A stretch of 34,562 bases of DNA from Rhodospirillaceae bacterium (GTDB lineage Bacteria; Pseudomonadota; Alphaproteobacteria; Rhodospirillales; JABHCV01), in NCBI GenBank assembly GCA_018671895.1, contig JABHGV010000057.1, positions 1 through 34,562 of the forward strand, given 5' to 3'. The translations under genes were made by a program, and so were the position numbers. Numbering within the stretch: the stretch's first letter is position 1; every line of letters starts with the position of its first letter. Shown here in pieces: positions 1 through 31,224 of the stretch. The notes beneath the pieces were generated by a model that made no database searches, was not told the DNA's origin, and was given only the letters and a program-made list of their open reading frames with translations.

Positions 1-877
1 TGGCGACCAGAAGCGGTGCCTGCATATCATCCATTTTGTACTTCAGCGCGATGGCGTAATGGGTCGGGTTGGTAATCACCACATCGGCTTCCGGAACAGA
101 TGCCATCATCCGCTGCTGGGCCCGTTCGGCCCTGATTTTCCGGATGCGTCCCTTAATCAGCGGGTCACCATCGGATTGCTTAAGCTCTTCCTTGACCTCT
201 TGCTTGGTCATCTTCATTTGCTTGTTGTAGCTGTACTTCTGATAAGCCAGGTCGAGCATGGCAACCGCCGTCATCACCCCCATGGACCCCAGCGTGAACC
301 AGATAGCAACAATCTGCACCCGGTCCAGAACCGTATCGAGGCCGCGCAACGAGAACAGCGTTATGTCACCGAGAAGCGGTACTGCCAGAATATAAGCGAC
401 CAGGGACACCGTGGCGATTTTGACAATGCCTTTGGCAAACTCGATCACACCCTTGACCGAAAATATTTTTTTTGTGCCCTTGATCGGATCCAGTTTCTTG
501 AAGTCCGGCTTTATTTTAGACGGGGCCCAGATCAGACCGAACTGAGCCAAATTCGAGATGATGGCGATCAACACCAGAGCAAGCAAAAACGGCCACAGAA
601 TGAACCCCAACTCTATGAAAACATCGGCCATCATTTTTTGAATTTCTCTGGGCCCTATCGTCATCTGATAACCGCCACCGATGAACTTCGCCCCGAGAAG
701 TCGAATATCTGTGGCAATGCCCGATGACATCATCATCAAGCCAAAAGCCGCGCCCAGCAGCATCGCCCAGTGCTTGATTTCCTGCGATTGGGCAACCTGA
801 CCCTTCTCCCGAGCCTTTCTTATTCGTTTCGGGGTTGGTTCTTCTGTTTTTGATGAGTCGTCTTCGTCTTCTGCCAA
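1..877 (-). CDS. flhB: Flagellar export-gate switch protein FlhB (partial, C-terminus beyond window)
   Basis: FlhB is the inner-membrane export-gate protein that switches the flagellar type III system from rod/hook to filament substrates after self-cleavage. The window encodes residues 1-292. The N-terminus carries the family signature EEPTPKRIRKAREKGQV (about residues 12-28), followed by hydrophobic helices and the autocleavage motif NPTH at residues 270-273, then YAIALKY. The C-terminal rest of the cytoplasmic domain lies left of base 1. The start is a TTG at 877-875: the codon just before it is a TAA in the same frame, and the next in-frame ATG would remove the conserved N-terminal motif. 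It lies 5 bases downstream of the fliR stop and is the last visible gene of the flgB operon. The identification is firm; only the start codon is unusual. Confidence 0.96.
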   Translation of the reverse strand, partial: MAEDEDDSSKTEEPTPKRIRKAREKGQVAQSQEIKHWAMLLGAAFGLMMMSSGIATDIRLLGAKFIGGGYQMTIGPREIQKMMADVFIELGFILWPFLLALVLIAIISNLAQFGLIWAPSKIKPDFKKLDPIKGTKKIFSVKGVIEFAKGIVKIATVSLVAYILAVPLLGDITLFSLRGLDTVLDRVQIVAIWFTLGSMGVMTAVAMLDLAYQKYSYNKQMKMTKQEVKEELKQSDGDPLIKGRIRKIRAERAQQRMMASVPEADVVITNPTHYAIALKYKMDDMQAPLLVA

Positions 878-882
878 TTAAA

Positions 883-1644
883 TCAAGGCTCCAACATGTG
901 AATCAGGTTGTCTTCATAACGTGTCAGGAAATACATGAAAATGGTCGTCAGGGATAATGACAGCAACATCAACTGTCCGCCGATTTGCAATGGCATGGCA
1001 ACAAAGAAAACCGGCAATGCCTGCATCAGGCGTCCCAAAATACCAAGGCCAATGTAATAAATCATTGATGTGACGATGAACGGCGACGCCAATTGCACAC
1101 CCAGCGTGAACGAGTCCGCGACCCGGCGCGCAACCAGCGCAGAAAAATCGGCCAACGGCAGGGGCTGACCCGGCACGAACAGGGTATAGCTTTCGCCGAT
1201 TCCCCTGATCATCAGATGATGCAGGTCGGTAATAAACAACAAAGTCATCCCGATGGTCCCCATAAATGAAGCAAGGATAGAGCTTTGCTGATTGGTGATC
1301 GGATCCTGAATAAGGGCATTGGCCAGCGAGGAGAAAAGTGCAATGAGAGTTCCTGCTGTTTGCAGGGCCGCGGTCATAACCCGGGCAACCAGCCCGAGAA
1401 ATCCCCCGACAATGACCTCTCCGATCAACAGTATGCCCAATCCTGTCGCCGTCTCGGGCATCCCCGGCAGGCTGTTCATCAGGAACGGCATCAGCATCAG
1501 GCTGAGCCCCAGCGCGACGGCCAGGCGCATCATCGGCTTGACGTAATCGGAACTGAATCCGGGCAACAACATGAACACGGCGCCTACACGGGCAAAGATC
1601 AGGAAGAAGGCAAAAACGTTAAGCTTCAGGAGTTCCTCAAGCAT
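883..1644 (-). CDS. fliR: Flagellar biosynthesis protein FliR
   Basis: FliR is one of the three export-gate core proteins (FliP, FliQ, FliR) that form the protein-conducting channel inside the MS ring. The 253-residue product has the usual family length and is highly hydrophobic, with several predicted membrane segments, beginning MLEELLKLNVFAFFLIFARV and containing LLPGFSS near residue 26. The ATG at 1644 is preceded by a GGAGGGG ribosome site about 8 bases upstream. It follows fliQ by 19 bases and precedes flhB by 5, so the genes are evidently co-transcribed. No oddities seen. Confidence 0.97.
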   Translation of the reverse strand: MLEELLKLNVFAFFLIFARVGAVFMLLPGFSSDYVKPMMRLAVALGLSLMLMPFLMNSLPGMPETATGLGILLIGEVIVGGFLGLVARVMTAALQTAGTLIALFSSLANALIQDPITNQQSSILASFMGTIGMTLLFITDLHHLMIRGIGESYTLFVPGQPLPLADFSALVARRVADSFTLGVQLASPFIVTSMIYYIGLGILGRLMQALPVFFVAMPLQIGGQLMLLSLSLTTIFMYFLTRYEDNLIHMLEP

Positions 1645-1663: not shown

Positions 1664-1930
1664 TCAGCCCAATGCGATGATTCGGTCGAACAAGCGGTTC
1701 GAGAATTCGATGACGGTGGTCATCATGAACGGCAGGAACAAGACGATGGCGAAGAAAATAGCAATGATCTTCGGAACAAACGTCAGGGTCATTTCCTGAA
1801 TCGTTGTCAACGCCTGAAACAGAGCAATGGCAAGACCAATCAGCAGGCCGGAAAACATAATCGGGCCGGCCGTCTTTAAAATGACGAAAAGTGCATCACG
1901 TCCCACTTCAAGAACCGCAGCCTCATTCAT
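1664..1930 (-). CDS. fliQ: Flagellar biosynthesis protein FliQ
   Basis: FliQ is a small two-helix inner-membrane component of the export gate. The 88-residue protein matches the family length. It has two hydrophobic helices (about residues 14-40 and 50-75) around the conserved segment QALTTIQEMTLTFVPKI. It sits between fliE and fliR in the same direction, 24 bases after the fliE stop, as in other alphaproteobacterial clusters. The product is complete and conventional. Confidence 0.97.
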   Translation of the reverse strand: MNEAAVLEVGRDALFVILKTAGPIMFSGLLIGLAIALFQALTTIQEMTLTFVPKIIAIFFAIVLFLPFMMTTVIEFSNRLFDRIIALG

Positions 1931-1954: not shown

Positions 1955-2272
1955 TCAAACCGGCATCCGAAGAATTTCCTTGTAAGCATCAACGACCTTG
2001 TCGCGAACGGCAACGACCACTTGCAAGGTGGCTTCAGCTTCGGCAATGGCGGTGACCACCTGATTCATATCGGCCCGGTCATTAATAGCCGCCAAGCTGA
2101 TCGCTTCCTGCTTTTCGCCAATCTTAACCGCCTCTTTGATCGCGCCCTTGACCAGACCGGCAAACGGACTGTCCTGTCCGGCATCACGCGCTTCCATTCC
2201 GGCGCCTGCGTTTTGCGGCGATTTTGCATAGGCCGCGACGGCATTTGCTACATTTTGTACGGGAATTGCCAT
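1955..2272 (-). CDS. fliE: Flagellar hook-basal body protein FliE
   Basis: FliE joins the MS ring and export gate to the proximal rod. The 105-residue product has the family's typical C-terminal half: NDRADMNQVVTAIAEAEATL, VVAVRDKVVDAYKEILRMPV. The ATG at 2272 has a well-placed AGGAG six bases upstream. It lies 35 bases after flgC in the rod operon. The N-terminal third is low in conservation, as is usual for FliE. Confidence 0.95.
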   Translation of the reverse strand: MAIPVQNVANAVAAYAKSPQNAGAGMEARDAGQDSPFAGLVKGAIKEAVKIGEKQEAISLAAINDRADMNQVVTAIAEAEATLQVVVAVRDKVVDAYKEILRMPV

Positions 2273-2307: not shown

Positions 2308-2718
2308 TTAGCGCAAAAGGTCGATGGTGTTGTTAATCATGGTTTTCGATGTCTTCATGACGTTCAGATTGGCGTCGTAGGAACGCTGCGCCTCGCGCAT
2401 ATCCATCATTTCGATCAGTGAATTAACGTTGGGGGTCTGGATGTATCCATCACTGCCCGCTGCCGGGTGGGACGGGTCATACTTCTTCTTGAATTCGGAA
2501 CGATCGGGTAACACTTTGTCGACCTTGACCGTATCAAGACCAATGGTCCGATCGAGCGTGTTCTTGAAGGTAACGACCTTGCGACGGTACGGCGTTTCGC
2601 CCGGCGATTGCGGTACTGACCCGGCATTCGCAATATTTTCGGAAATCACCCTCAGGCGAGTCCCCTGCGCTCTCATCCCGGAGGAGGAAATTCTGAGCGT
2701 CTTCATAATGTCGTCCAT
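2308..2718 (-). CDS. flgC: Flagellar proximal rod protein FlgC
   Basis: FlgC polymerises into the proximal rod. The N-terminal helix MKTLRISSSGMRAQGTRLRV and the motif ISENIANAGS are the rod/hook-family signature, and the C-terminal helix MREAQRSYDANLNVMKTSKTM is the matching coiled-coil partner. Length (136 residues) is normal. The ATG at 2718 adds four residues before MKTL and has GGAG 8 bases upstream, so I prefer it over the internal ATG. It is the second gene of the flgB operon. Confidence 0.96.
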   Translation of the reverse strand: MDDIMKTLRISSSGMRAQGTRLRVISENIANAGSVPQSPGETPYRRKVVTFKNTLDRTIGLDTVKVDKVLPDRSEFKKKYDPSHPAAGSDGYIQTPNVNSLIEMMDMREAQRSYDANLNVMKTSKTMINNTIDLLR

Positions 2719-2765
2719 GGTGCCTACTCCCTTAACTCTTCAATAAGAGCCGTCTTAAGCGTCGT

Positions 2766-3170
2766 TTACTTGTTGCCGATAGCCATCCGGATCATGTCCA
2801 GATTTTTTTTATAGATCTTGGTCATAAACTTATGATCAATGGATGTTTCGTTGACCTTGGCCATTTGTTCTTCCAACACCACGGAGTTTCCGTTCGGCGA
2901 GGTTTCATAAGGACGGCGTTCGGTAACGGTTGCGTAATCCCGGATCCGCTTTGGTCGCCCGGCGATAAGTCCGGGCCCGTTGGCATCAAGATTCAACTGC
3001 ATGTTTTCGGAACGAACAAGCTCATCGAAGCTGTAACGCTTCAAGTCACTGGGTGCGTATTTAGGGGTATCGGAATTGGCGATGTTCTGCGCCAGAATTT
3101 CCTGGCGCTGGGTCAACCACGAAAGCCGTTTTTTAACGGCTCCGAACAGAGACATTCTTTCGAATTCCAT
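2766..3170 (-). CDS. flgB: Flagellar proximal rod protein FlgB
   Basis: FlgB is the innermost proximal rod subunit. The sequence contains WLTQRQEILAQNIANSDTPK (about residues 18-37), the rod-protein signature, followed by the typical APSDLKRYSFDELV, and a C-terminal helix ending DHKFMTKIYKKNLDMIRMAIGN. I chose ATG at 3170 (134 residues). An upstream in-frame GTG at 3179 would add three residues and cannot be excluded. It is the first gene of the leftward rod/export operon, so its promoter should lie in 3171-3458. Confidence 0.96.
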   Translation of the reverse strand: MEFERMSLFGAVKKRLSWLTQRQEILAQNIANSDTPKYAPSDLKRYSFDELVRSENMQLNLDANGPGLIAGRPKRIRDYATVTERRPYETSPNGNSVVLEEQMAKVNETSIDHKFMTKIYKKNLDMIRMAIGNK

Positions 3171-3458
3171 AACAACCACTCACCCTTCTTTTAACTGCCG
3201 GTCGGTCCCAAACGACCCGCAGACACATGCCTTGGACTCTGAGTATCACCACCCAACGCTTAACATCGGGTAAACGACTGAAAAGACTCATGCATTCACC
3301 ACCCTCCCGCACAGGAAAACACCGGCGACGCCCGTTAACACCCTGAAAATTAAGGCGTAAACGGTGCTTTTGCCCTTAAAGAATTATTAAGCATGATGTA
3401 CCACCATCAACATCGGGACTTAAAAGGGCAAAATCTTGTGGTTAGGGCTTAAAGACTC
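3171..3458. promoter_or_regulatory. Divergent control region between flgB and the flhX-like gene
   Basis: This 288-base gap separates the leftward flgB operon from the rightward fliO-fliP group and must hold both promoters. It contains three GANTC sites (3235-3239, 3285-3289, 3454-3458), a TTAA-N7-TAAA element at 3260-3274 that is one base from the CtrA consensus, and a 10-base inverted repeat TTTTGCCCTT (3368-3377) / AAGGGCAAAA (3424-3433) spaced 46 bases apart. I found no convincing sigma-54 -24/-12 pair. The sites are seen directly; CtrA or methylation control is inferred. Confidence 0.45.
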
Positions 3459-3836: not shown

Positions 3837-4165
3837 CCCCCGCAGAAACGCCGACGGATCAAATCGCCGCCATATATGACGAGATCGAAAAGGTCGATTC
3901 GGTCATCACCACGGCCCAGCGTCTGCTGGCAGATGGAAAAATTGTCGATCTGTCCGCGCTGGAAGGAAGAGTAGAATCCTTGTGCGACCAGATTATCGAC
4001 GCCGACGTGGATAGCACTGACGACATCAGTCAGGCTTTAAGGGACGTTCTGGGGAAGCTTGAGCGACTGGGTGAAGAACTTGTCGCCCAGCACGAGGCCG
4101 CTGGTGGTGATATTTCCGACATGCCCGTCAAAAAAGCCATCGACGCCTACGAAAAGGATTCCTGA
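3833..4165 (+). CDS. Unknown small acidic helical protein between flhX-like gene and fliO
   Basis: I do not recognise a family for this 110-residue protein. It is strongly acidic and predicted to be mostly alpha-helical, with heptad-like stretches (YDEIEKVDSVITTAQRLL; DDISQALRDVLGKLERLGEEL) and no membrane segment or signal peptide. Its ATG overlaps the upstream stop codon (ATGA), which implies translational coupling to the FlhB-C-like protein, and fliO starts 5 bases after its end. The size, acidity and helicity would suit a small flagellar chaperone or adaptor, but that is only inference from context. Confidence 0.75.
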   Translation: MTPAETPTDQIAAIYDEIEKVDSVITTAQRLLADGKIVDLSALEGRVESLCDQIIDADVDSTDDISQALRDVLGKLERLGEELVAQHEAAGGDISDMPVKKAIDAYEKDS

Positions 4166-4170
4166 AACCA

Positions 4171-4548
4171 ATGGATGGAATGGATATCGGTCTCGGCGAC
4201 TATATGAAATTCGTGCTGTCGTTGGTTTTCGTCCTTGCCCTGATTGGCTTGGTGACGGTGATTGCTCGACGCATGGGCTTCGGCATGCCGGTTATCAACA
4301 AGTCTGCCGCCGAACGCCGCCTCAGTATTGTCGAGGCGATGAACGTTGACGGCAAAAGACGGCTGCTTCTGGTCCGCCGCGACGACAGGGAACATCTGGT
4401 GCTGCTGGGGCCATTAGAAGACCTGCTGCTTGAAGCTGGCATCAAGGCCCCGGAAAACACCTTTTCCAGAACCCTGCAAGCGGCTGCCAAAGCGGCCAGC
4501 CAGCAAGACATCACGACCGTCGAGCCCGATCACAAGGACCCGCGATGA
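4171..4548 (+). CDS. fliO: Flagellar biosynthetic protein FliO
   Basis: FliO is a bitopic membrane protein that helps assemble or stabilise the FliP ring. The 125-residue product has one membrane helix (about residues 12-31, FVLSLVFVLALIGLVTVIAR) and then the FliO/FliZ-family cytoplasmic part: RLSIVEAMNVDGKRRLLLVR and REHLVLLGP. The stop overlaps the fliP start (ATGA), and the family and its partner gene are adjacent. I chose ATG at 4171. A second Met three residues later is possible. Confidence 0.9.
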   Translation: MDGMDIGLGDYMKFVLSLVFVLALIGLVTVIARRMGFGMPVINKSAAERRLSIVEAMNVDGKRRLLLVRRDDREHLVLLGPLEDLLLEAGIKAPENTFSRTLQAAAKAASQQDITTVEPDHKDPR

Positions 4549-5288
4549 CCCGTCGATTAGCCCTTCCCGTCATTATAGGCCTGCTGGTTCTCGCCGTTCC
4601 GGACGTCGCTTTTCCTCAAACCCTGTCGCTGGATATGGGCGAAGGCGGTGGTTCGTCAACGGCTCGCATTATCCAGCTGATCCTGCTGATGACGGTTCTG
4701 ACACTGGCACCGTCGATGCTGGTCATGGTCACATCGTTTACCCGAATTATCATCGTTCTGTCGTTCCTGCGTACCGCCATGGGTGTGCAACAAACACCGC
4801 CCAATCAGGTGCTGGTCAGTCTGGCGTTATTCGTCACCATGTTCATCATGATGCCGGTCTTCGAAGAGGCCTATGACAACGGCATCAGTCCGCTGATCGA
4901 AGAACAGATTGATGAAGAAGCCGCCATTGAACGCAGCATCGCGCCGTTCAAGACGTTCATGATGACGTATGTGCGCGAGCGCGACTTGGCGCTGTTCGCC
5001 GACATTGCAAAAATTCCGGACGAGGAAATCCGCAATGAAATGCCGCTGCGGGTCCTGGTCCCGTCATTCATGATCAGTGAATTGCGGCGTGCCTTTGAAA
5101 TCGGCTTTCTGATTTTTATTCCGTTTCTGATTATCGACATGGTCGTGGCGTCGGTTCTGATGTCCATGGGCATGATGATGCTGCCACCGATTATCATCGC
5201 GCTGCCGTTCAAGATCATTTTCTTCGTGCTGATCGACGGCTGGTACATGGTGATCGGCAGCCTGGTCCGAAGCTTCGGCGGGGCCTAG
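4545..5288 (+). CDS. fliP: Flagellar biosynthesis protein FliP
   Basis: FliP forms the pentameric core of the export channel. The 247-residue protein has a cleavable signal peptide (about residues 1-25), the signature MLVMVTSFTRIIIVLSFLRT, GVQQTPPNQVLVSLALFVTM, a periplasmic loop, and FMISELRRAFEIGFLIFIPF near residue 176. These are diagnostic. It is coupled to fliO by a 4-base overlap. Its 3' end overlaps the 3' end of the convergent TPR gene by four bases. Confidence 0.98.
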   Translation: MTRRLALPVIIGLLVLAVPDVAFPQTLSLDMGEGGGSSTARIIQLILLMTVLTLAPSMLVMVTSFTRIIIVLSFLRTAMGVQQTPPNQVLVSLALFVTMFIMMPVFEEAYDNGISPLIEEQIDEEAAIERSIAPFKTFMMTYVRERDLALFADIAKIPDEEIRNEMPLRVLVPSFMISELRRAFEIGFLIFIPFLIIDMVVASVLMSMGMMMLPPIIIALPFKIIFFVLIDGWYMVIGSLVRSFGGA

Positions 5289-12845: not shown

Positions 12846-13181
12846 TTAGCGCATCTCCTCGTCATCCTTGATAAGCCGGTCTTCAATACGAATAGCCATC
12901 TGTTCACCCTTGCGTCCCATGGATCCTGTGTACAACGGGAAACCGCCACTGCTCATCTTGATCAGGGACGTCGGCGTCGCGTTAAGCATCAACTGAGACC
13001 CGGGTTGCAGGGCGAACACGTCGCTCAGTTTCATATTCAACTGATCAAGCACGGCCTCTACTTCCACTTGGGTCATCCAGAGTTCTTCGGCAAGGTGCGT
13101 TTCCCAAATGGAGTCACGACCAAATTTTTCACCCATGAACATTTGCAGCAGCAATTCACGAACCGGTTCCAGCGTCGCATA
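12846..13181 (-). pseudogene. fliM: FliM, 5'-truncated (C-terminal third only)
   Basis: FliM is the C-ring switch protein that binds CheY-P. Only the last 111 codons remain, from YATLEPVRELLLQMFMGEKF through the C-terminal SpoA-type domain (VEAVLDQLNMKLSDVF, then GGFPLYTGSMGRKGEQMAIR). The CheY-binding N-terminus and the middle domain are missing: upstream of the Tyr codon (13181-13179) the minus-strand frame runs into the antisense of flgA. An intact FliM is about 320-370 residues. The frame stays open to 13442 but encodes nonsense there. At 13177-13181 the bases GCATA fit both fliM and flgA, so this is a clean join. See findings. Confidence 0.9.
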
Positions 13182-13962
13182 CTCCCCGGAACCGGGCAAG
13201 AGGGCGGTCTTCGACACCACCTGGCTGTACAAGGTGGCGCGTGGATACGGGCTCGCCTGGAAACCGCTAAGCAACAAGCAGCAGGCCGTTGTTCGTCGTG
13301 AAAGTATCGCCATCAAGCGAGCGGAAATCGAAGACAACATCCTTGGCGCCCTGATCGAACAGGGCACCAGCCCGGAAATGAGCGTCGAACTTTCCAACCG
13401 GATGCTGCAAATCCACGTCCCCAGCGACACCGAGGCAACCATCGCCGTTGAGGATTTGCTGGTTGATCAACGCACCAGCCGGTTTACCGCATGGCTGACT
13501 GCACCTGCCAATGGCCCGGTCAGCAGCCGCACCCGGGTCACCGGCCAGATCGTCAAGATGGTCGATGTTCCGGTGCTTAATAATCGTATTGCCAGGGATC
13601 AGATCATCCGCGCCGAAGACCTGAAGTGGATCAAAATTCGTTCGAAACGCATCCAGGATGATGTCGTCACCAACGCAAATGGACTCATCGGCATGACTCC
13701 GAAACGGGTTCTGCGATCCGGCAAGCCTGTCAGCAATTCCGATATCAGCCGTCCCTTGCTGATCAAGAAAGGCGGACTGGTGACCATGGTTCTGAAGTCT
13801 CCCTTCATGACCCTGACGTCACAGGGCCGTGCCCTTGATAACGGCAGCGATGGCGACGTCGTGCGCATCACCAATACGCAAAGCAATAAAACGGTCCAGG
13901 CCGTCGTCACCAATACCGGGCAGGTGCGGGTAACCAGCGCCAGTAGCCTGGCAATGAACTAG
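13177..13962 (+). pseudogene. flgA: FlgA P-ring assembly chaperone, 5'-truncated
   Basis: FlgA is the periplasmic chaperone for P-ring assembly. About 261 codons remain, from AYSPEPGKRAVFDTTWLYKV to the stop. The SAF-like domain (VLNNRIARDQIIRAEDLKWI) and the C-terminal beta domain (GLIGMTPKRVLRSGKPVSNS, LIKKGGLVTMVLKS) are intact. The signal peptide and first N-terminal residues are absent, so the product could not be exported. The frame is open back to an ATG at 13108, but that segment is antisense fliM, so the ATG is not the natural start. It is 23 bases upstream of flgH, the usual partner. Confidence 0.88.
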
Positions 13963-13985: not shown

Positions 13986-14741
13986 ATGAAACATAAATTC
14001 AAGGCAAGAACGGCAACCGCCATTGCCCTGACGTTGGGGCTGACGGCGTGCGCCGACACCCTCAGTCGATTGTCAGAAGTCGGCAATGGCCCAAAGATGA
14101 CGGAAATATCCAATCCGACCAGCAAACCTGATTATCGGCCGGTCAACATGCCGATGCCGACCCCGGAAATGGTCGAGGAAAACCCGAACTCGCTGTGGCG
14201 GGCCGGGGCACGGGCATTCTTCAAGGATCACCGGGCCAAGGAAATCGGCGATATCCTGACGGTCGAGCTGGACTTCACCGATACCGCCACTTTGGACAAC
14301 ACAACGACGCGCGAAAGAACCGACACGGAAACCACCGGCGTCACCAACCTGCTGGGTCTGGAAACCGAATTCCACAAGGTCTTGCCCCAGGGTCTGGTCC
14401 CGTCGACTGCCGGCACATGGAGTGCCGATCACGACACCGAAGGCGTCGGCAACATAACCCGTACGGAAGTGGTCCAGTTATCGATGGCGGCCGTGGTCAC
14501 GCAGATTCTGCCGAACGGCAATCTGGTCATCATGGGACGCCAGGAAATGCTGGTGAACAAGGAACTCAGGGAATTGATGGTGACTGGCGTCATTCGCCCG
14601 GGCGACATCGAATCTGATAACACCATCGCACACACCAGCATCGCCGAAATGCGCGTCGCCTACGGTGGACGCGGAACACTAAGCGAATTGCAGAAACCCC
14701 GTTGGGGAACACAAATCTGGGATATCATCTTCCCGTTCTAG
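13986..14741 (+). CDS. flgH: Flagellar L-ring lipoprotein FlgH
   Basis: FlgH forms the outer-membrane L ring. The 251-residue product has a lipoprotein signal peptide ending in the lipobox LTAC (Cys at about residue 21) and the family segments NSLWRAGARAFFKDHRAKEI, GDILTV, and VVTQILPNGNLVIMGRQEML followed by VNKELRELMVTGVIRPGDI. It ends WGTQIWDIIFPF. The ATG is preceded by TAGGAG 8 bases upstream. It is complete, unlike its neighbour flgA, and is followed by a strong terminator. Confidence 0.97.
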   Translation: MKHKFKARTATAIALTLGLTACADTLSRLSEVGNGPKMTEISNPTSKPDYRPVNMPMPTPEMVEENPNSLWRAGARAFFKDHRAKEIGDILTVELDFTDTATLDNTTTRERTDTETTGVTNLLGLETEFHKVLPQGLVPSTAGTWSADHDTEGVGNITRTEVVQLSMAAVVTQILPNGNLVIMGRQEMLVNKELRELMVTGVIRPGDIESDNTIAHTSIAEMRVAYGGRGTLSELQKPRWGTQIWDIIFPF

Positions 14742-14997: not shown

Positions 14998-15432
14998 TTA
15001 ATCGTCTCTATGCGTCTTTTCCATGCGCTCGTGGCGTTCCTGGGCCTCGATGCTCAAGGTTGCGATGGGCCGCACTTCCAATCTCGACAGGCTGATCGGT
15101 TCGCTGGTCTCTTCGCAATACCCGTACTCGCCACGTTCAATGCGTTCAAGCGCTTCATCAATTTTGGAAATAAGTTTGCGTGCCCGGTCGCGGGTCCGCA
15201 ATTCCAAAGAACGATCAGTCTCGATTGAGGCACGATCGGCAATGTCCGGTTCCTGGATGCCACCCTCTTGAAGGTGTTGAAGCGTCTCGTCAGACTCGTT
15301 CAGCAATTCCTTGCGCCAAGCCAGAAGCTTCATGCGGAAATATTCCGTCATCTCCGGGTTCATAAACTTTTCTTTTTTTGAAGGCCGGTAATCCGGAGCC
15401 AATGTAACGTTCATGGACTTCTTTTTCCCCAT
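14998..15432 (-). CDS. dksA: DksA/TraR-family transcription regulator (single-Cys form)
   Basis: DksA binds RNA polymerase through its secondary channel and, with ppGpp, tunes stable RNA and flagellar transcription. The 144-residue product has the two-helix coiled coil with Asp/Ala near the tip (DIADRASIETDRS, about residues 76-88) and the zinc-finger region YGYCEETSEPISLSRLEVRP. Only one of the four zinc-ligand cysteines remains; the others align with Thr, Ser and Ala, as is usual in alphaproteobacterial DksA. ATG at 15432 has AAGGA 8 bases upstream. The dksA-fliX neighbourhood is known from other alphaproteobacteria. Confidence 0.95.
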   Translation of the reverse strand: MGKKKSMNVTLAPDYRPSKKEKFMNPEMTEYFRMKLLAWRKELLNESDETLQHLQEGGIQEPDIADRASIETDRSLELRTRDRARKLISKIDEALERIERGEYGYCEETSEPISLSRLEVRPIATLSIEAQERHERMEKTHRDD

Positions 15433-15602: not shown

Positions 15603-15725
15603 CTAGCGGGTCAACTTGGCGATTTCAACTTCCGCCCGCAATTCAATTTCATCAATGATTTCATTGAGTTTCGAGTCTTCCGTCTGGCGTCTCTGGGCGC
15701 GCATTTTCTGAGCCCGCCCGGTGGC
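15603..15725 (-). pseudogene. fliX: Probable 3' remnant of fliX
   Basis: A minus-strand frame of about 40 codons ends at the TAG at 15605-15603 and encodes RAQRRQTEDSKLNEIIDEIE, then LRAEVEIAKLTR. This resembles the C-terminus of FliX, the alphaproteobacterial assembly factor that partners FlbD, and it lies immediately upstream of dksA as fliX does elsewhere. No start codon with a ribosome site is present. To the right the sequence changes to flgE on the opposite strand, so at least the first two thirds of the gene are missing. The FliX assignment rests on a short segment and on position. Confidence 0.55.
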
Positions 15726-17171
15726 ACCGCGGTACTGACGCTTGAAGACGGAACAGCGACAACGCCGCTAGTTTACCAGAGCATCGGACAGCTTGAATTC
15801 AACGTGCTCAACGCGGCTGGTGATTCAACCCGCCGCCCGGCCGATGGTTCAACCGTTATTATCGACGGCGTCACCTACGAATTCGACTCGGACGCGACAT
15901 CGACTGCAACCGTGGCCGTCGACATCAGTTCCAACACGACGCTAGCCCAGGACGTCCAGGCCTTGGTCAATGCGGTTAAGGGATATGACACTGATTTTGC
16001 CAACTATGGCGACACACCGACGGTCAATTCCCGCATTTCCATCAGCCCTGGTTCTTCGACAACCATCCTGTTTCAAGATGACGGCACCAAAGCAATTGTC
16101 GTCGACCCGACCGGCATGCTGGACAGCACCGGTGTGCGCGTCAGCGCACAGGACAATTCCTTCACGGTCAAGAAACAGGATCTGGCCTACACCGACTCCG
16201 TGCAGTTCAAGTTCACGACCATGGCCACCGACGGCGACACCGTTGTCATCAACGGCCTGACCTACACTTTCTTGACCGCCGAAGCAGCCGACACCGCCGG
16301 TGGTGACAGGACCATCTTCACCGATAACACGGCGGCAACGGCAGCCAACTTGCAAACCATGCTGACTGACCTTGAAGACGCCATTGAAGCCAACGACTCG
16401 AACTTCGCATCGGGTGGTGCCAGCGTCGATATCCGTGCTTACGGCAACTCGACAACGTCGAATACGTTACAACTGAAATCGCTCAGCAGCGGTACCTACG
16501 ACGTCGATTTCGCGGGCATCACCGGCACGACGACGACCGTTACCGAAACCGACGACACGGCTTTCACCGGCACGACGCAAGCCGTCAATACGGCGGCGGG
16601 CATCAAGTTCTCAAGTGATGGCCTGCCGAACGCTGTTAACGTCGCCGAGATCGAAATCCTCGATTTCGATAACGGTGCCGCGAACATGGATGATGACGCA
16701 TCGAATGCATCGCAAATCACGCTCGATTTCGGAACCATCAACGAAGCCAACGGCATGACCCAGTTTGGTGCCAGTTATACGCCAGTGTTCATCAACCAGG
16801 ACGGTTCGCGCTTTGGCACCTTCGCCGGTGTCACGGTGGGATCGGACGGGCTGGTAACGGCGCTGTTCGATAACGGTGAAACGCGACCGATCTACCAGAT
16901 CCCCATCGCAACCTTCGTTAACGTCAACGGTCTTGAAAGCCGCACAGGTAATACCTGGAACGCTTCGCAAGCATCGGGTGACTATACATTGCGCACGGCC
17001 GATAACGGACCGGCCGGGCAAACAGTTCAGGGGGCACTTGAAGCCTCCACCGTCGATATTGGTGAGGAATTCACCAGTATGATCGTGGTCCAGAGAGCCT
17101 ACTCTGCGTCCGCGAAAATCATCAGCACCGCCGACCAAATGTTGGAAGAGCTGATGAGGGTGAAACGTTAG
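15726..17171 (+). pseudogene. flgE: Hook protein FlgE, 5'-truncated
   Basis: FlgE is the hook subunit. The C-terminal signature is intact: QIPIATFVNVNGLESRTGNT, then QGALEASTVDIGEEFTSMIV and VQRAYSASAKIISTADQMLE. Upstream is a Thr/Asp-rich variable domain of about 330 residues with two related modules, DGSTVIIDGVTYEFDSDA and DGDTVVINGLTYTFLTAEA. The conserved N-terminal helix of hook proteins (Met-Ser-x-Phe-Gly-Ala-Leu type) is missing; the frame is open leftward into the fliX remnant. A GTG at 15804 could open the frame but has no family support. The boundary lies within 15700-15745. Without the N-terminal helix the protein could not be exported or polymerised. Confidence 0.85.
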
Positions 17172-19518: not shown

Positions 19519-21177
19519 GTGGATACATTATTGCAGGCATTGCGGAACCTTGGACCATTACGTCTGACCGTCATGGGCGGCGTCGCGATGGCGCTGATTG
19601 GATTTTTCATCTTCCTGACGACACGCTTGACGTCGCCTCAACTGGAGCTCCTGTATGGCGGTCTGGAAAGCGACGACGTCTCGCAAATCATGACCGAACT
19701 CGCAACCACGAACACACCGTATGAACTGCGTGGTGGCAATCAAGTCTTCGTCCCATCTGATAAAGTCTCCCAGGTCCGCCTGAGCATGGCATCGAAGGGA
19801 ATTCCCAGTGGCGGCTCTATCGGATATGAAATTTTCGACGAAGCCAGCAGCCTGGGAACAACAAATTTTATCCAGAATATCAACCTGTTACGCGCCCTTG
19901 AGGGAGAGCTTTCCAGAACCATCAAGGACATATCATCGGTTAAATCGGCCCGTGTCCATCTGGTTTTGCCGAAGCGTGAGCTGTTCAGCCGACAGGCCCA
20001 GCAGCCGTCTGCATCGATCGTGCTGAACATGTCCGGTGGGATGCGCCTTGGCGCTGAACAGGTTTCTGCCGTCCAGCATCTGGTCGCCGCTGCAGTGCCC
20101 GGCCTGAACCCGAACCGAATTTCCATCGTCGACAACAAAGGCTCGCTTCTGGCCCGTGGATTCGAGGAAGAAGGCACCCCTGGTGCGATGTCGGCAAAGG
20201 GCGAAGAGCGCAAGCTAGCAATGGAAAAAAGGCTTTCCCAGACTATTGAACAATTGCTCGAAAAGACCGTTGGTTTTGGCAAGGTTCGCGCTGAAGTTAA
20301 CGCCGATATGGATTTCGACCTGATTACCACCAACGAGGAACTCTATGACCCGGAAGGTCAGGTGGTACGCTCGACACAGTCTGTCGAACAGGGTGCCTCG
20401 AGCGAAGAATCGGACGGCGCCACACCGGTTAGCGTCGCCACCAACCTGCCCGATGCCAATTTGGGATCTTCCACATCATCGGCCAGTCTTAACACCAAGG
20501 AAAACCGCACCGAAGAAACCGTCAATTACGCCAATTCCAAGAAAAGCATCAGTCACACGCGTGAGGCTGGCGTTGTTACGCGGCTGTCGGTGGCGGTGCT
20601 TCTGGACGGCACTTATAGCGAGGACGAGAACGGCGACAAGGTCTATCAGCCCCGTAATGAGGCTGAAATGGAACTGATGGCAACGCTGGTCCGCAGCGCC
20701 ATCGGCTTCAGCGCCGACCGGGGCGATTCTGTCGATGTTATCAATATGCAGTTCGCAGACCTTGATACCGGCGTAGAAGAAGAGCTTGAGCTGTTCTTCG
20801 GTCTCGACAAGAACGACCTGCTGAGAATGGCGGAAATCCTTGTTTTAAGCATCGTTGCCATCCTGGTTATCCTGCTGGTTGTCAGGCCGCTGGTCTCAAG
20901 AGCATTCGAAGCCTTGCCCGCAGCCATGGCCGAAGGCAAAATGCTAGCTGATCAGACAACTGCCGCCGCAACCGCCGCACTAACCGCACCTAGCGCAGGT
21001 GCACCGGCGCCCAGCGACGCGCCCGGCATTGAAGATCAGTATGACGAGTTGATTGATATCGACCGCGTCGAAGGCAGGGTCAAGGCATCCTCGGTCAAGA
21101 AGGTCGGCGAAATTGTCGCCAAGCATCCGGAAGAGGCCCTGTCGATTGTTCGTTCGTGGATGTATCAGGAAGGTTAA
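19519..21177 (+). CDS. fliF: Flagellar MS-ring protein FliF
   Basis: FliF forms the MS ring, the base on which the motor is built. The 552-residue product has two membrane helices (about 23-38, GGVAMALIGFFIFLTT, and 440-460, ILVLSIVAILVILLVVRPLV), with ring-building motifs between them: YGGLESDDVSQI, GSIGYEIFD, NINLLRALEGELSRTI and SARVHLVLPKRELFSRQAQQ. A C-terminal FliG-binding tail ends EEALSIVRSWMYQEG. The start is a GTG with AAGGGACTAGGG before it. It opens the large rightward operon; fliG follows after 13 bases. Confidence 0.98.
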   Translation: MDTLLQALRNLGPLRLTVMGGVAMALIGFFIFLTTRLTSPQLELLYGGLESDDVSQIMTELATTNTPYELRGGNQVFVPSDKVSQVRLSMASKGIPSGGSIGYEIFDEASSLGTTNFIQNINLLRALEGELSRTIKDISSVKSARVHLVLPKRELFSRQAQQPSASIVLNMSGGMRLGAEQVSAVQHLVAAAVPGLNPNRISIVDNKGSLLARGFEEEGTPGAMSAKGEERKLAMEKRLSQTIEQLLEKTVGFGKVRAEVNADMDFDLITTNEELYDPEGQVVRSTQSVEQGASSEESDGATPVSVATNLPDANLGSSTSSASLNTKENRTEETVNYANSKKSISHTREAGVVTRLSVAVLLDGTYSEDENGDKVYQPRNEAEMELMATLVRSAIGFSADRGDSVDVINMQFADLDTGVEEELELFFGLDKNDLLRMAEILVLSIVAILVILLVVRPLVSRAFEALPAAMAEGKMLADQTTAAATAALTAPSAGAPAPSDAPGIEDQYDELIDIDRVEGRVKASSVKKVGEIVAKHPEEALSIVRSWMYQEG

Positions 21178-21190
21178 GGTAAACTGAAGC

Positions 21191-22216
21191 ATGGCAAAGG
21201 CTAAAGACGACCTGCGAAATCTATCGGGCCCGCAAAAGGCGGCGATCTTCATGCTTGCGCTGGGCCAGGAACATTCAGCAGGCATGTTCGAGTTGATGGA
21301 CGATGAAGAAATTCGCGACATGTCGCAGACCATGTCAACTCTGGGCAACATCAATTCCAGCCTGATCGAACGCCTGTTCGTCGAATTCGCCAACCAATTG
21401 TCCGGTGGGGGTGGCGGTTCGGTCATTGGTTCGTACGACACTGCAGAACGGCTTCTTTATCAAGCCCTGCCAGAAGATCGCGTTTCCCAGATTATGGAAG
21501 AAATTCGCGGCCCTGCAGGCCGTACCATGTGGGATAAGCTGGGCAACGTTAACGAGGCGGTGCTCGCCAACTACCTGAAAAACGAATACCCGCAGACGGT
21601 TGCCGTCGTGCTCTCTAAAATTCGCGCCGATCATGCCGCCCGTGTGCTGGCGGTCCTGCCGGAAAACTTCTCCATGGAAGTCATCATGCGCATGCTGCGG
21701 ATGGAATCAGTACAAAAAGAGGTGCTGGATCACATCGAAAAGACCCTCAGGACAGAATTCATGACCAACCTGGCGCGCACGGCACGTCGCGACAGCCACG
21801 AAATGATGGCCGATATCTTCAACAACCTGGATCGCAATACGGAAAGCCGGTTTATGACCGGACTGGAAGAACGCAACAGGGAATCGGCCGAAAAGATCAA
21901 GGCATTGATGTTCACCTTCGACGATCTCGCCAGGCTCGACAACTCCGGTGTCCAGACGGTCCTGCGTCAGGTCGAAAAGGACGCCCTGGCAATGGCTTTG
22001 AAGGGTGGTTCCGAAGAAGTCAAGACGCTGTTCTTCCAGAACATGTCGGAACGTGCCGGCAAGATGATGAAGGAAGACATGGACGCCATGGGCGCTGTTC
22101 GCCTGAAAGAGGTCGACGAGGCCCAGGCAGCCATCGTCCAGACCGCCAAGGCCCTGGCCGATGCTGGCGAAATCGTCATCGCCGGTTCCGGCGAAGAAGA
22201 CGAGCTGGTGTACTAA
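21191..22216 (+). CDS. fliG: Flagellar motor switch protein FliG
   Basis: FliG couples stator torque to the rotor and helps set rotation direction. The 341-residue protein has the N-terminal FliF-binding domain ([20 protein letters not shown]), the middle EHPQ-like region ([20 protein letters not shown]) and the C-terminal torque helix [20 protein letters not shown], which carries the expected charged residues. It is complete and lies between fliF and fliH. Because FliG is intact while FliM is truncated, the C ring would be incomplete if the junction is real. Confidence 0.98.
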
Positions 22217-22219
22217 CGT

Positions 22220-23023
22220 ATGACCGCAACCGTAGAAAAATTCATGTTCGAGACGACCTTCGACGAAATGTCGGAGCCAGAAATTGTTGTCCCGGAGCCG
22301 GAAGACGAGGAAAAAGAAGAAGAACCGGAAATCATTGTTCCGACCTTTTCCGAAGAAGAACTGAATGCCGCACGCGAGGAAGGCTTTGCCGCTGGCAAGC
22401 AGGAAGGGCAGCAGGAAACGTCGGTTTCCGTCGAGGCACGTATCGCGGAACTGCTCAGCGTTATCGAAACAAAGTGTCAGGATGTTTTTCAGATGCAAAT
22501 TGACGGCAATGTCGAGTTATCCCGCGGTGCCGTGACAATCGCCAGTGAAGTCGTCCACAAAGTCGTTCCCAGTCTTGTCGGGAATGTAGCCCTGGACGAG
22601 ATCGAGCGGGTTATTCAGTCCATCTTCGAGAAAATTGTCGAAGAACCGCGTGTGACGATTTTCGTCAGCGCCGAATTGGTAGATGATCTGCGGGCACGCA
22701 TCGAAAACATGAGCAAAAGCCGCACATACGAGGGAAATATGCATGTGCAGGGCGACGACACAATGCCAACAGGTGATTGTCGCCTGGAATGGTCAAACGG
22801 TGGCACCGAACGCAACAGTGTCGACCTGTGGAGCGATATCGACACCATTATCGACAGCTATCTGGACGGTAAACCAACAATTTGGAGTCGCTCTGACGAG
22901 CCCGCCAGCGACACCCCGAACGACACCCAGGACCCTGTCGCCGAAACACAGAAAACTGAGCTTGACAGCACCGTTGAAATGAACGATCCGGCACCCGAAA
23001 TTCAACCCGAAGCTGACGAATAA
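22220..23023 (+). CDS. fliH: Flagellar assembly protein FliH
   Basis: FliH binds and regulates the export ATPase FliI and docks it at the C ring. The 267-residue product is highly acidic with a long helical centre (about 50-110, EEELNAAREEGFAAGKQEGQ). The C-terminal domain VSLVGNVALDEIERVIQSIF-like region and LEWSNGGTERNSVDLWSDID match the FliH/YscL family. The extreme C-terminus (about 225-267) is an acidic Asp/Pro/Glu tail of unknown role. It starts 3 bases after fliG. Length is near the alphaproteobacterial norm. Confidence 0.9.
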   Translation: MTATVEKFMFETTFDEMSEPEIVVPEPEDEEKEEEPEIIVPTFSEEELNAAREEGFAAGKQEGQQETSVSVEARIAELLSVIETKCQDVFQMQIDGNVELSRGAVTIASEVVHKVVPSLVGNVALDEIERVIQSIFEKIVEEPRVTIFVSAELVDDLRARIENMSKSRTYEGNMHVQGDDTMPTGDCRLEWSNGGTERNSVDLWSDIDTIIDSYLDGKPTIWSRSDEPASDTPNDTQDPVAETQKTELDSTVEMNDPAPEIQPEADE

Positions 23024-23038
23024 GGTCAGGAGGAAATT

Positions 23039-23407
23039 ATGGCTGACGAAAAAGATCTGGAATTATCCGAACTTGAAGTAGACGAAGCCGCAGAAGGTGA
23101 GGCAGCAGCAGCGCCGCCCCCGGCAATGGAGGCTCCACGCGATATTCCCGACCTGCCAGCAAGCGCGCAGGACCTGGAAGCCGTTTACGACATTCCGGTT
23201 CAGGTTTCCGCTGTTCTTGGAAAAACCCACATGCAGGTCAGCCAGTTGCTGAAATTGGGGCGGGGTGCGGTCGTCGAACTGGACCGCAAGGTCGGCGAGG
23301 CCATAGACATTTACGTTAATGACCGTCTGGTAGCGCGTGGCGAGGTCGTCGTCGTCGAAGACCGTCTTGGCGTGACCATGACGGAAATCATCAAGACAGA
23401 ACGCTAG
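23039..23407 (+). CDS. fliN: Flagellar motor switch protein FliN
   Basis: FliN forms the lower C ring. The 122-residue protein has an acidic Ala/Glu-rich N-terminus (1-45) and a complete SpoA domain: VYDIPVQVSAVLGKTHMQVS, LLKLGRGAVVELDRKVGEAI, DIYVNDRLVARGEVVVVEDR and LGVTMTEIIKTER. A strong AGGAGG-like site precedes the ATG. It follows fliH by 15 bases. Confidence 0.97.
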   Translation: MADEKDLELSELEVDEAAEGEAAAAPPPAMEAPRDIPDLPASAQDLEAVYDIPVQVSAVLGKTHMQVSQLLKLGRGAVVELDRKVGEAIDIYVNDRLVARGEVVVVEDRLGVTMTEIIKTER

Positions 23408-23422
23408 GCAGGAACCCGGTTA

Positions 23423-24238
23423 ATGGCAAACGGCGGTGAAACTATAAATATCCGTAAAGTGAAGTCGTCGATGGACATGGCAACCGTCATCGGGCTGATC
23501 TGTGGTTTTGGGCTGATTACAGCCGCCATTGTGCTGGGCGGCGATCCAGCGTCATTTGTCAATCCGCCATCGATCCTGATCGTTGTCGGCGGCACGCTGG
23601 CCATTACCACCATGTGCTTTTCCATGTCGGAAATTGGCCATTCCGTGAAAATCATCGCCAAAACATTCTTCTTCTCGTCACGCGATCCGTCCGACGCCGC
23701 CATGCAAATTCTGCAAGTCGCCGAACTGGCGCGCCGTCAGGGCGTGCTGTCGCTGCAAAACGTACTTGATGGCCTGCGCCCTGAGCCGTTCCTGTACAAG
23801 GGCATGCTGATGGTCGTCGATGGGACGCCGGGCGAAGAAGTCGAACTGATTATGCGCCGCGACCTGAACGCGACGCTGACGCGCCATCACAAAAGTACCA
23901 ATGTGCTGCGAAAAGCAGCTGAATTTGCACCGGCCATGGGCCTGATCGGCACCTTGATCGGTCTGGTGCAGATGCTCGGCAATCTGGATGATCCCTCGAC
24001 CATCGGTCCGGCCATGGCCGTCGCCCTGCTGACCACATTTTACGGTGCTGTGCTGGCAAACATGGTGTTCTCGCCGATGGCTTCGAAGCTGGAGCGGAAC
24101 TCGGCGGAAGAATCCATGGTCAACACAATTTACATGATGGGGGCGGCATCCATCGGTCGGCAGGAAAACCCGCGCCGCCTGGAAATGCTGCTCAACAGCA
24201 TACTGCCCCCGGGTAAACGCGTGCAATATTTTGACTGA
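23423..24238 (+). CDS. motA: Stator protein MotA (MotA/PomA family)
   Basis: MotA is the multi-pass stator subunit paired with MotB. The 271-residue product has four membrane segments, a cytoplasmic loop with EEVELIMRRDLNATLTRHHK, the proline-containing helix AAEFAPAMGLIGTLIGLVQM and the last helix VALLTTFYGAVLANMVFSPM, all hallmark features. It lies between fliN and flbD, whereas its partner motB is about 14 kb away on the other strand, an arrangement common to this group. The four membrane segments fit the PomA/MotA type; the ion (H+ or Na+) cannot be told by eye. Confidence 0.95.
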   Translation: MANGGETINIRKVKSSMDMATVIGLICGFGLITAAIVLGGDPASFVNPPSILIVVGGTLAITTMCFSMSEIGHSVKIIAKTFFFSSRDPSDAAMQILQVAELARRQGVLSLQNVLDGLRPEPFLYKGMLMVVDGTPGEEVELIMRRDLNATLTRHHKSTNVLRKAAEFAPAMGLIGTLIGLVQMLGNLDDPSTIGPAMAVALLTTFYGAVLANMVFSPMASKLERNSAEESMVNTIYMMGAASIGRQENPRRLEMLLNSILPPGKRVQYFD

Positions 24239-25636: not shown

Positions 25637-27763
25637 ATGGCCGACGCTCAAAGCGAAACAACAACCGCCCCACAGACGCCGTCATTCGGTCTGCAAGATG
25701 TGGTCGGGTTTATCACCAAGCGCGCCGATATCGCGCTGGCCCTGGGTGTCGTCTGTATCCTGGTGGTATTGATCCTGCCAATGCCGAAATGGCTTCTGGA
25801 TATCGCCCTTGCGTTTTCCATCACGTTTTCCGTGCTCATCCTGATGACCACCTTGTTTATTACCAAGTCGTTGGAATTCAATGCTTTTCCGACAGTCATC
25901 CTGCTCGCGACGATGATCCGCCTGTCCCTGAACCTGGCCTCGACCCGCCTGATCCTGAGTGACGGTCACACCGGACCAGACGCCGCCGGTAAAGTCATTG
26001 AAGCCTTCGGCGGTTTCGTTATGGGTGGCAATTTTGTTATCGGTATTATCGTCTTCGCGATCCTGGTTATCGTCAACTTCGTCGTCATCACCAAGGGTTC
26101 CGGGCGTATCGCCGAAGTTTCAGCGCGCTTCACCCTGGACGCCATGCCCGGTAAACAGATGGCCATTGATGCCGACCTGTCGACCGGCCTGATCGACGAG
26201 GCCGATGCACGGGCCCGACGCAAGGAACTGGAAGACGAGAGCACTTTCTTCGGAGCCATGGATGGTGCATCGAAGTTCGTTCGTGGTGATGCTGTCGCTG
26301 GCCTGATGATTACCTTTATCAACGTCATCGGTGGCATGATCATCGGTGTCGCGCAGAACGATCTGACCTTTGCTCAGGCCGCCGAGACTTATACCCGCCT
26401 GACCGTCGGTGATGGCCTGGTCTCGCAAATCCCGGCGTTGATCGTCTCGACCGCCGCCGGTCTGATGGTGACGAAAGCCGGTATCGGTGGCACTGCAGAC
26501 AAAGCATTGTTCTCGCAACTGGGTGGGCGTCCGCGCGCCATGGGCGTCAGCTCATTCTTGCTAATTTCACTAGCGCTGTTGCCCGGCATCCCTGCAGTTC
26601 CGTTCGTTATTCTGGGCACTATCACCGGTTTCATTTCGCTGTACGTCGGCATCAGCCAGAAAAAGACACAGGATGAGGCGCTTGAAAAAGCCGAGGAAGA
26701 GGCCTTAGAGCCATCGAAGGCCGAAGAAGAGCCCATCGGCTCGGCCCTGAAGATAGACTTCCTGCGCCTTGAGCTGGGCTACGGCCTGTTGTCGCTGATT
26801 AACAACCCCCGCGACGGCCAGCGCCTGACCGACCAGATCAAGGCGCTGAGACGGCAAATGGCATCGGACATCGGTTTCGTCATGCCGTCGGTCCGTATTC
26901 AGGACAACATGCAGCTTCCCGCCAACACCTATGTCGTCCGGGTCAAGGAGATCGAGGCCGGGAATGGCGATCTGCGCCCCAACATGTTGCTGGTGATGGA
27001 TCCGCGCGGCGAGGAAATCACCCTGCCCGGCGAGAAAACCACCGAGCCGACATTCGGCCTGCCAGCCATGTGGATTGACGAGACAAACCGCGAAGAAGCA
27101 CTGTTCCGTGGCTACACGGTGGTTGATCCGGCGACCGTCATCACCACCCATATAACAGAGGTCATCAAGGACAACATGGCCGAGCTGCTGTCCTATGCGG
27201 AAACGCAAAAACTGATGGACGAGCTGGACAAGGAACATCAAAAACTGATTGGCGACATGATCCCGGCGCAGATATCGCTGGGCGGCGTACAACGCGTCTT
27301 GCAGAACCTGCTGGCCGAACGGGTGTCGGTGCGCGACCTGCCGACTATTCTGGAAGGCATATCGGAAGCCTGCGGCCAGACCCGCAACATCACCATGATT
27401 ACCGAACATGTCCGTGCCCGACTGGCCCGACAAATCAGTTCAATCAACACCAACGAGGCCGGGTTTATCCCGCTCGTTACCTTAAGCCCGGAATGGGAAC
27501 AGGCCTTTGCCGAATCCCTGGTCGGCACCGGCGAGGATCGCCAGCTTTCAATGCCGCCAAGCCGCTTGCAGGACTTCATTCAGGCACTGCGTAACGGCTT
27601 TGAGCGTCAGGCAATGATGGGCGAAACACCGGTATTGCTGACCAGCCCGCCGATCAGGCCGTTCGTGCGCTCCATTGTTGAACGTTTCCGCCCGATGACG
27701 ACGGTGATGTCCCAGAACGAAGTTTATTCAAAAGCCAACATCAAAACCGTTGGGCAGGTGTAA
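25637..27763 (+). CDS. flhA: Flagellar export-gate protein FlhA
   Basis: FlhA is the large export-gate subunit that uses the proton motive force and docks substrates and chaperones. The 708-residue product has about eight membrane helices (28-330) with the FHIPEP-family signature LATMIRLSLNLASTRLILSD near residue 94. A cytoplasmic nonameric domain follows (about 360-700), including PSVRIQDNMQLPANTYVVRV and VLQNLLAERVSVRDLPTILE. It ends SKANIKTVGQV, the usual C-terminus. The stop is directly followed by the flhG ATG. Confidence 0.98.
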   Translation: MADAQSETTTAPQTPSFGLQDVVGFITKRADIALALGVVCILVVLILPMPKWLLDIALAFSITFSVLILMTTLFITKSLEFNAFPTVILLATMIRLSLNLASTRLILSDGHTGPDAAGKVIEAFGGFVMGGNFVIGIIVFAILVIVNFVVITKGSGRIAEVSARFTLDAMPGKQMAIDADLSTGLIDEADARARRKELEDESTFFGAMDGASKFVRGDAVAGLMITFINVIGGMIIGVAQNDLTFAQAAETYTRLTVGDGLVSQIPALIVSTAAGLMVTKAGIGGTADKALFSQLGGRPRAMGVSSFLLISLALLPGIPAVPFVILGTITGFISLYVGISQKKTQDEALEKAEEEALEPSKAEEEPIGSALKIDFLRLELGYGLLSLINNPRDGQRLTDQIKALRRQMASDIGFVMPSVRIQDNMQLPANTYVVRVKEIEAGNGDLRPNMLLVMDPRGEEITLPGEKTTEPTFGLPAMWIDETNREEALFRGYTVVDPATVITTHITEVIKDNMAELLSYAETQKLMDELDKEHQKLIGDMIPAQISLGGVQRVLQNLLAERVSVRDLPTILEGISEACGQTRNITMITEHVRARLARQISSINTNEAGFIPLVTLSPEWEQAFAESLVGTGEDRQLSMPPSRLQDFIQALRNGFERQAMMGETPVLLTSPPIRPFVRSIVERFRPMTTVMSQNEVYSKANIKTVGQV

Positions 27764-30792: not shown

Positions 30793-31215
30793 TCATGCCT
30801 TCTTACGCGCGTAGCCCTGCAAACCGATTTCGTCGAGGACCATTTGTTCGCGAACGGCGAGTTCCTTTTGCTCGCGCACTTCCCTGTTCTTCTGGGCGGT
30901 TTCGTATTTTTTCAACTCGCGATAGGCCTCGTTCAATTCCTCGCGGGCGACTTCGGCTTCTTGTTCAGATTGTTGAATTGACAGCGCTATCCGTTCGCGC
31001 CGCTCAATCACATGGTTGGCATAGTTGCCGTACAGGAACCCGGCTTCCGAGGGATCGTTGGCGGCACTGGCCTGCTCTTCAATCAACTCTTCTTCAAGCA
31101 ATTGCGCCTGATTCTGCAAGGCATTGATCAGACGCAGAATTCCACCAAGCTTTCGGCGTTTCTGGTCAACCGTCCACTCATTCAGTCGGATCAACGTTTT
31201 CAGGCTGCGGGCCAT
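30793..31215 (-). CDS. fliJ: Flagellar export protein FliJ
   Basis: FliJ is the coiled-coil stalk of the FliI ATPase and links it to FlhA. The 140-residue product is basic at its N-terminus (LKTLIRLNEWTVDQKRRKLG) and then almost entirely coiled coil, with YGNYANHVIERRERIALSIQ and KYETAQKNREVREQKELAVR. Length and composition match the family. It starts 9 bases after fliI, and the ATG has AGGA upstream. Confidence 0.92.
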   Translation of the reverse strand: MARSLKTLIRLNEWTVDQKRRKLGGILRLINALQNQAQLLEEELIEEQASAANDPSEAGFLYGNYANHVIERRERIALSIQQSEQEAEVAREELNEAYRELKKYETAQKNREVREQKELAVREQMVLDEIGLQGYARKKA

Positions 31216-31224
31216 TCAGCTTTC

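Follow-up and report, generated by a model that had tools for sequence, protein, structure and literature searches.

How did fliM and flgA, two flagellar genes read in opposite directions, come to be joined head to head with the 5' ends of both missing? The question arises from the window, by which we mean the whole stretch of DNA that was analyzed, 34,562 bases in length. The window makes up the whole of contig C31 in an assembly, designated G000, that comprises 2.50 Mb in 98 contigs and is scored as 98.53% complete and 0.16% contaminated; there is no N in the window. The nearest relatives used for comparison (G001 to G005) belong to other genera of the same family; no congener of G000 was found, a FlgA scan of genome contigs having given one locus.

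The fliM side of the join is a 3' remnant on the minus strand (12846..13181). Its translation, YATLEPVREL...DDEEMR followed by a stop, supplies the last 111 residues of FliM with the gene's own start lost. Its only Pfam content is the C-terminal FliMN_C domain, PF01052, where the full-length FliM of G002 has PF02154 at residues 110-300 as well as PF01052 at residues 321-391. The alignment follows four relatives back to YATLEP and diverges exactly at the LLP or MLP that precedes this motif in all four, E replacing P in the window. The flgA side is a plus-strand remnant (13177..13962) that reads AYSPEPGKR... and carries PF13144 at its C-terminal end. It matches the relatives from VAYSPEPGKR onward; their VAY or IAY is preceded by roughly 65-100 residues, counted from start codons inferred by eye and including a signal-peptide-like stretch, all of which the window copy lacks. 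The abrupt beginnings described in the original prediction, FliM at Tyr-Ala-Thr-Leu-Glu-Pro and FlgA at Ala-Tyr-Ser-Pro-Glu without a signal peptide, are both borne out by these alignments.

The join itself (junction 1) lies at 13174..13181. These bases (GTCGCATA) fit both fliM and flgA at the protein level, two of them being wobble positions, and the run common to both genes is about 2 to 8 bases long, with some two certain and the remainder dependent on the parent sequence. The bases GCATA at 13177-13181, earlier proposed as a five-base microhomology, do fit both genes and are a plausible choice within that range; a length of exactly five is consistent with the data. Under a simple model, five or more common bases at a random join have a probability of ~0.005. 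The open frames of both remnants continue over the junction, each along the antisense strand of its neighbor (12846-13442 on the minus strand, 13108-13962 on the plus strand), and each of these longer frames starts with an ATG (at 13442 and 13108, respectively). This is probably chance, and we give it no weight.

The interval between fliM and flgA can be read in three same-family relatives, G002, G003, and G004, while in G001 and G005 a contig ends there. In all three, the remainder of fliM is followed by fliL, which shares its strand, then by flgF and flgG on the opposite strand, and then by the beginning of flgA, which is read in the same direction as these two; Pfam matches in G002 confirm FliL, FlgF/FlgG, and full FliM. 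The genes fliL, flgF, and flgG also stand between fliM and flgA, in the same orientations, in G012, which lies outside the family; the arrangement had been predicted in this form. The interval measures about 3.7 kb in G002.

A second head-to-head join, of the same type and larger, occurs 2.5 kb from the first, at 15708..15713 (junction 2). On its minus-strand side is a 3' remnant of fliX (15603..15713), consisting of the last 36 residues and the stop, 81-92% identical to four relatives; the G002 orthologue belongs to Pfam family PF10768 (FliX). On its plus-strand side is flgE (15708..17171), encoding a hook protein without its N-terminal third, which starts at about residue 243 of 728 in G002 numbering and is 71-72% identical to residues 243-728 of the G002 protein. 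The G002 FlgE has PF00460, PF22692, PF07559, and PF06429, while the window copy retains PF06429 only. Alignments make 0-6 bases at this junction compatible with both genes, the range again depending on the parent sequence. In G002, the sole same-family comparison for this interval (flgE and flgD fall outside the stretches compared in G003 and G004), about 24.6 kb separates the two join points. It holds a second hook-like gene, flgI, flgN, flgK, flgL, sugar/glycosylation genes, flaF, flbT, the main flagellin gene, fliK, and flgD, where the fliK and glycosylation labels are our own assumption. Pfam supports FliX, FlgN (below cut-off), FlgK, FlaF, FlbT, flagellin, FlgD, FlgI, and FlgE, and FlgL weakly. 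Between the two junctions are two intact genes, flgH for the L ring (13986..14741, plus strand; PF02107 over 2-172 of 172) and a gene that we take to be DksA/TraR-like (14998..15432, minus strand; 86-87% identical to G001-G004). The stops counted for these two arise because the reference frames were extended from stop to stop; both genes are open.

At each join, either side gives a clean alignment with one gene in the relatives, and the change is abrupt at one point. No insertion sequence or other mobile DNA was seen at junctions 1 and 2, and flagellar coding sequence abuts both sides. Contiguous flagellar genes are missing by comparison with intact relatives, and the flanks are colinear, for the second interval with G002 only within the family. 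A colinear deletion had been proposed for the first join, and the order and orientation of the missing genes in relatives agree with it; the larger second deletion had been overlooked.

Of the functions missing from the window, those searched for were not found elsewhere in G000, with the exceptions of a distant FliL paralogue and an accessory flagellin with flaF. The original prediction had called for a search of the rest of the genome for fliL, flgF, flgG, and full fliM. Family searches of the whole assembly found no FliM core (PF02154), no FlgI, no FlgD, and no N-terminus of the FlgE/F/G/K type (PF00460) beyond those of FlgB, FlgC, and a 114-residue orphan; the same PF00460 model matches FlgF, FlgG, FlgK, FlgE, and the second hook protein of G002. 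These negative results, which cover the FliM core, the rod/hook N-terminus, FlgI, and FlgD, led us to reject an intact second set of the lost genes at another place in G000. FlgN, FlbT, and FliK lay outside these genome-wide searches, and FlgL was covered only through a weakly matching flagellin model. The orphan, on contig C33 (locus positions 5645-5986), has the flagellar rod N-terminal motif, and the gene beside it has an apparent homologue, likeness being judged by eye, that adjoins a similar orphan in G012 (3421-4371). The only FliL-family match (C9:41898-42482) is 30% identical to FliL of G003 and lies away from flagellar genes, and it was rejected as a surviving fliL in favor of a distant paralogue.

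The sole flagellin gene in G000 is at a contig end (C92, positions 3-1044) with flaF downstream, near what are presumably YggT-like and FolD-like genes. Its identity to the flaF-adjacent flagellin of G003 (C14) and G001 (C174) is 33-34% across 262 residues. The main flagellins of G002 and G003, which are 57% identical to each other, are matched by it in part only. From these comparisons we read it as an accessory type, the main flagellin apparently having been lost. Among 100 genomes including G000, FlgA was found in 83, FliM core in 83, and FlgI in 82. Five of the 83 FlgA-bearing genomes have no FliM core: G000, G011, G027, G028, and G032. The last four, with completeness of 73-94%, are not shown to be deletion cases.

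Much of the flagellar supercluster is retained. On the minus strand at the left end of the window are flhB (2..877; PF01312), which runs off the contig, fliR (883..1644; PF01311), full length by comparison with G003 and G004, fliQ (1664..1930; PF01313, and similar to relatives), a gene that we take from its position and its homology to relatives to be fliE (1955..2272), and the intact proximal rod genes flgC and flgB (2308..3179; PF00460 in both, PF06429 in flgC). On the plus strand follow fliO and fliP (4171..5288; PF04347, below cut-off, and PF00813), intact fliF and fliG for the MS ring and rotor (19519..22216; Pfam and relatives), a fliH-like gene with fliN and motA (22220..24238), and intact flhA (25637..27763; PF00771 and relatives), while fliJ and fliI (30793..32730, minus strand; PF02050, and PF00006 with PF18269) are open. 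The export gate and ATPase genes are intact, with the qualifications that flhB is cut by the contig end and that the fliH-like gene has no Pfam match and is named from position. The state of the genes from flhB to fliP was judged against G003, G004, and Pfam; fliJ, fliI, cheR, a ctrA-like gene, and the gene at 28580-30307 have no full-length counterpart in the G003 and G004 stretches compared. All retained flagellar genes compared with relatives align nearly end to end and have no internal stops.

No flagellum can do without several of the lost genes, yet those that were retained look maintained, and the remnants of the cut genes do as well. Measured against outgroups, three of the G000 remnants (FlgA, FlgE, and FliX) have diverged no further than intact orthologues. 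Over 105 residues, the tail of FliM is 3-8 percentage points below G002 and G003 in this comparison, to which we attach little weight since the intact motE is lower by a similar amount. Old deletions with decayed remnants find no support in G000, given the undecayed remnants, or in another genome of the order, G031, given low dN: its retained genes and remnants show dN of 0.009-0.143 against its congener G062, similar to the intact pair G049-G062, with dS near saturation. Because the remnants are undecayed, the losses must be recent, or the joins are not fixed, or they are not real.

G031 belongs to another family (98% complete, 10 contigs), and its FlgA and FliM matches also touch head to head (C6:436020). 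The endpoints of this fusion differ from those in G000; 3.8 kb is lost by comparison with the intact congener G062, with 3 common bases. From the sequence comparison, we judge that the fusion arose independently of that in G000. Two further colinear deletions are seen in G031 against G062, their joins lying at C6:421296 and C6:425049, and all three joins are inside a 546-kb contig. One, of about 52 kb with about 70 bases unaligned at the join, brings the second hook-like gene, at its 3' end, up against sequence that flanks the TPR gene neighboring sciP; the other, of 8.8 kb, cuts fliF after about residue 98 and joins it to a point just upstream of flhG. Missing within the 60 kb examined are fliG, fliN, motA, flbD, and flhA, and neither FlgI nor flagellin was found in G031. 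A third genome, G073 (C36:20001-25000), compared with its congener G164, has a flgF::flgH join, a DUF6468::flhB join, and further cut genes. The G073 genome is the smaller of the two.

FliM was matched in 252 of 297 genomes of the order, leaving 45 without a match. We inspected the 22 weakest of the 252 (best E above 2e-160), a set that a small interior truncation could escape, and among them found interior fliM::flgA truncation in G000 and G031 only; the other 20 were full-length divergent FliM or copies cut by contig ends. With two found in 297 genomes by this inspection, the fusion is not supported as a common state in the order. No published report of a fliM::flgA fusion was found in the literature searched here.

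The reading that we favor, with a probability of roughly 0.6, is that two or more separate deletions, colinear and recent, in one flagellar supercluster cost the G000 lineage its main flagellum. The first, of about 3.7 kb by comparison with G002, would have removed fliL, flgF, flgG, and the divergent promoter region and joined fliM head to head with flgA; the second, of about 24.6 kb on the same comparison, would have removed the second hook-like gene through flgD and joined fliX head to head with flgE. Both joins would be present in the cells. They may have arisen by illegitimate (short-homology) recombination or by replication slippage, and one deletion may have relaxed selection and thereby permitted the other. 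No working flagellum forms without FliM, the distal rod (FlgF, FlgG), the P ring (FlgI), FlgD, the hook (FlgE), FlgK, and the main flagellin. The main flagellum can probably no longer be built in G000, and from gene content we infer a non-motile cell.

A population polymorphism and an artefact, taken together, make up a tentative alternative to fixed deletions, one with a minority share of the probability that deserves to be weighed. In a structural polymorphism, which by itself we find rather unlikely, intact and deleted cells would coexist, the assembler would have followed the path with the deletion (or the commoner one), and the sequence from intact cells would have been left unbinned. The lack of decay in the remnants suits this possibility, and natural mixtures of motile cells and non-motile cells bearing deletions are described for Xanthomonas in PMC3826837. 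Against it, the bin yielded none of the deleted functions searched for: the FliM core, the N-termini of FlgE, FlgF, FlgG, and FlgK, FlgI, FlgD, and the main flagellin. One would think a piece of 24 kb long enough to have entered the bin.

An artefact, through chimeric molecules from whole-genome amplification or through misassembly, is likewise unlikely. In its favor, two joins fall within 2.6 kb of each other, and short common bases typify amplification chimeras: in PMC1855051, more than 70% had 2-21 nt of complementarity, and 58 of 475 were direct joins more than 10 kb apart, the form that junction 2 takes. Against this, the same study counts 406 of the 475 as inverted and 11 as direct over less than 10 kb; G000 may resemble these chimeras in short common bases at the join (2-8 and 0-6, depending on the parent sequence) and differs in that its two joins are direct and colinear and both lie in flagellar genes. 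The typical inverted form is absent from G000, although the 69 direct joins among the 475 reference chimeras keep this from being decisive. All four join ends fall in flagellar genes, and similar joins occur in other assemblies, one of them inside the 546-kb contig. De Bruijn assemblers do not join sequences on 5-8 bases. The contig has no N, and since a short common run could not alone have produced such a join, molecules carrying these joins probably existed. An artefact, which the original prediction had set beside a true deletion, is weakened by the independent fusion in G031 and by the second neighboring deletion, and it stands at lower weight. Two direct, colinear joins in flagellar genes, together with parallel deletions in other assemblies, favor biology.

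Very improbable is an order-wide account in which the fliM-flgA and fliX/hook-flgE intervals would be repeatedly excised and selection would still act on the remaining supercluster, G000 shedding switch, distal rod, hook, and main filament and keeping export gate, MS ring, proximal rod, and accessory flagellin as a working secretion device. Most improbable of all is an adaptive reduction in which the export gate, ATPase, MS ring, and proximal rod would be what is left of the flagellum, still in use for secretion. The analogy is to the non-flagellated Lysobacter enzymogenes, whose flagellar type III system still works although flagellin, FliG, and FliM are missing (PMC9927559). The export-apparatus genes, fliF, fliG, fliN, fliE, flgB, and flgC are retained and open in G000, but recency explains their retention equally well, and the genes for chemotaxis and the stator, which have no use in secretion, are equally well retained. 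Within the 60 kb of G031 that was examined, flhA is absent and fliF is reduced to its start, so that no common retained machine is seen, and we found no positive evidence that the G000 remnant serves secretion.

Stepwise deletion, the reading preferred here, is of a known type, deletion being a fairly ordinary route to motility loss. In Xanthomonas fuscans 4834-R, a 33-kb deletion removed rod, ring, hook, and filament genes, and among xanthomonads 5% of tested strains were non-motile and bore deletions; in one epidemic, roughly half of the strains were non-motile (PMC3826837). G000 is similar to the xanthomonads, as described there, in that genes for the rod, ring, hook, and filament have gone from the cluster and in the existence of several deletion patterns, with non-motile and motile strains coexisting in Xanthomonas; the gap in 4834-R, however, holds ISXfu2 and the non-motility of that strain was measured, whereas G000 has two clean joins and is known from sequence alone. 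As in L. enzymogenes (PMC9927559), fliM, flgK, and flagellin are lost while the export apparatus is kept, but G000, known from its genes, also keeps fliG, flgB, fliE, motor genes, and the remnants of cut genes. Related alphaproteobacteria of the Caulobacteraceae show independent, convergent losses of the flagellum (PMC12700997); there the flagellar genes of the affected genomes are wholly gone, whereas the loss in G000 is part-way.

If the joins are an artefact, then a genome scored 98.5% complete can miss most of a machine with its score unaffected. If they are real, the loss of a flagellum would have been caught early, ahead of point decay, and one and the same pair of genes would have been hit by parallel deletions in two families, so that the order and speed of flagellum loss would become testable.
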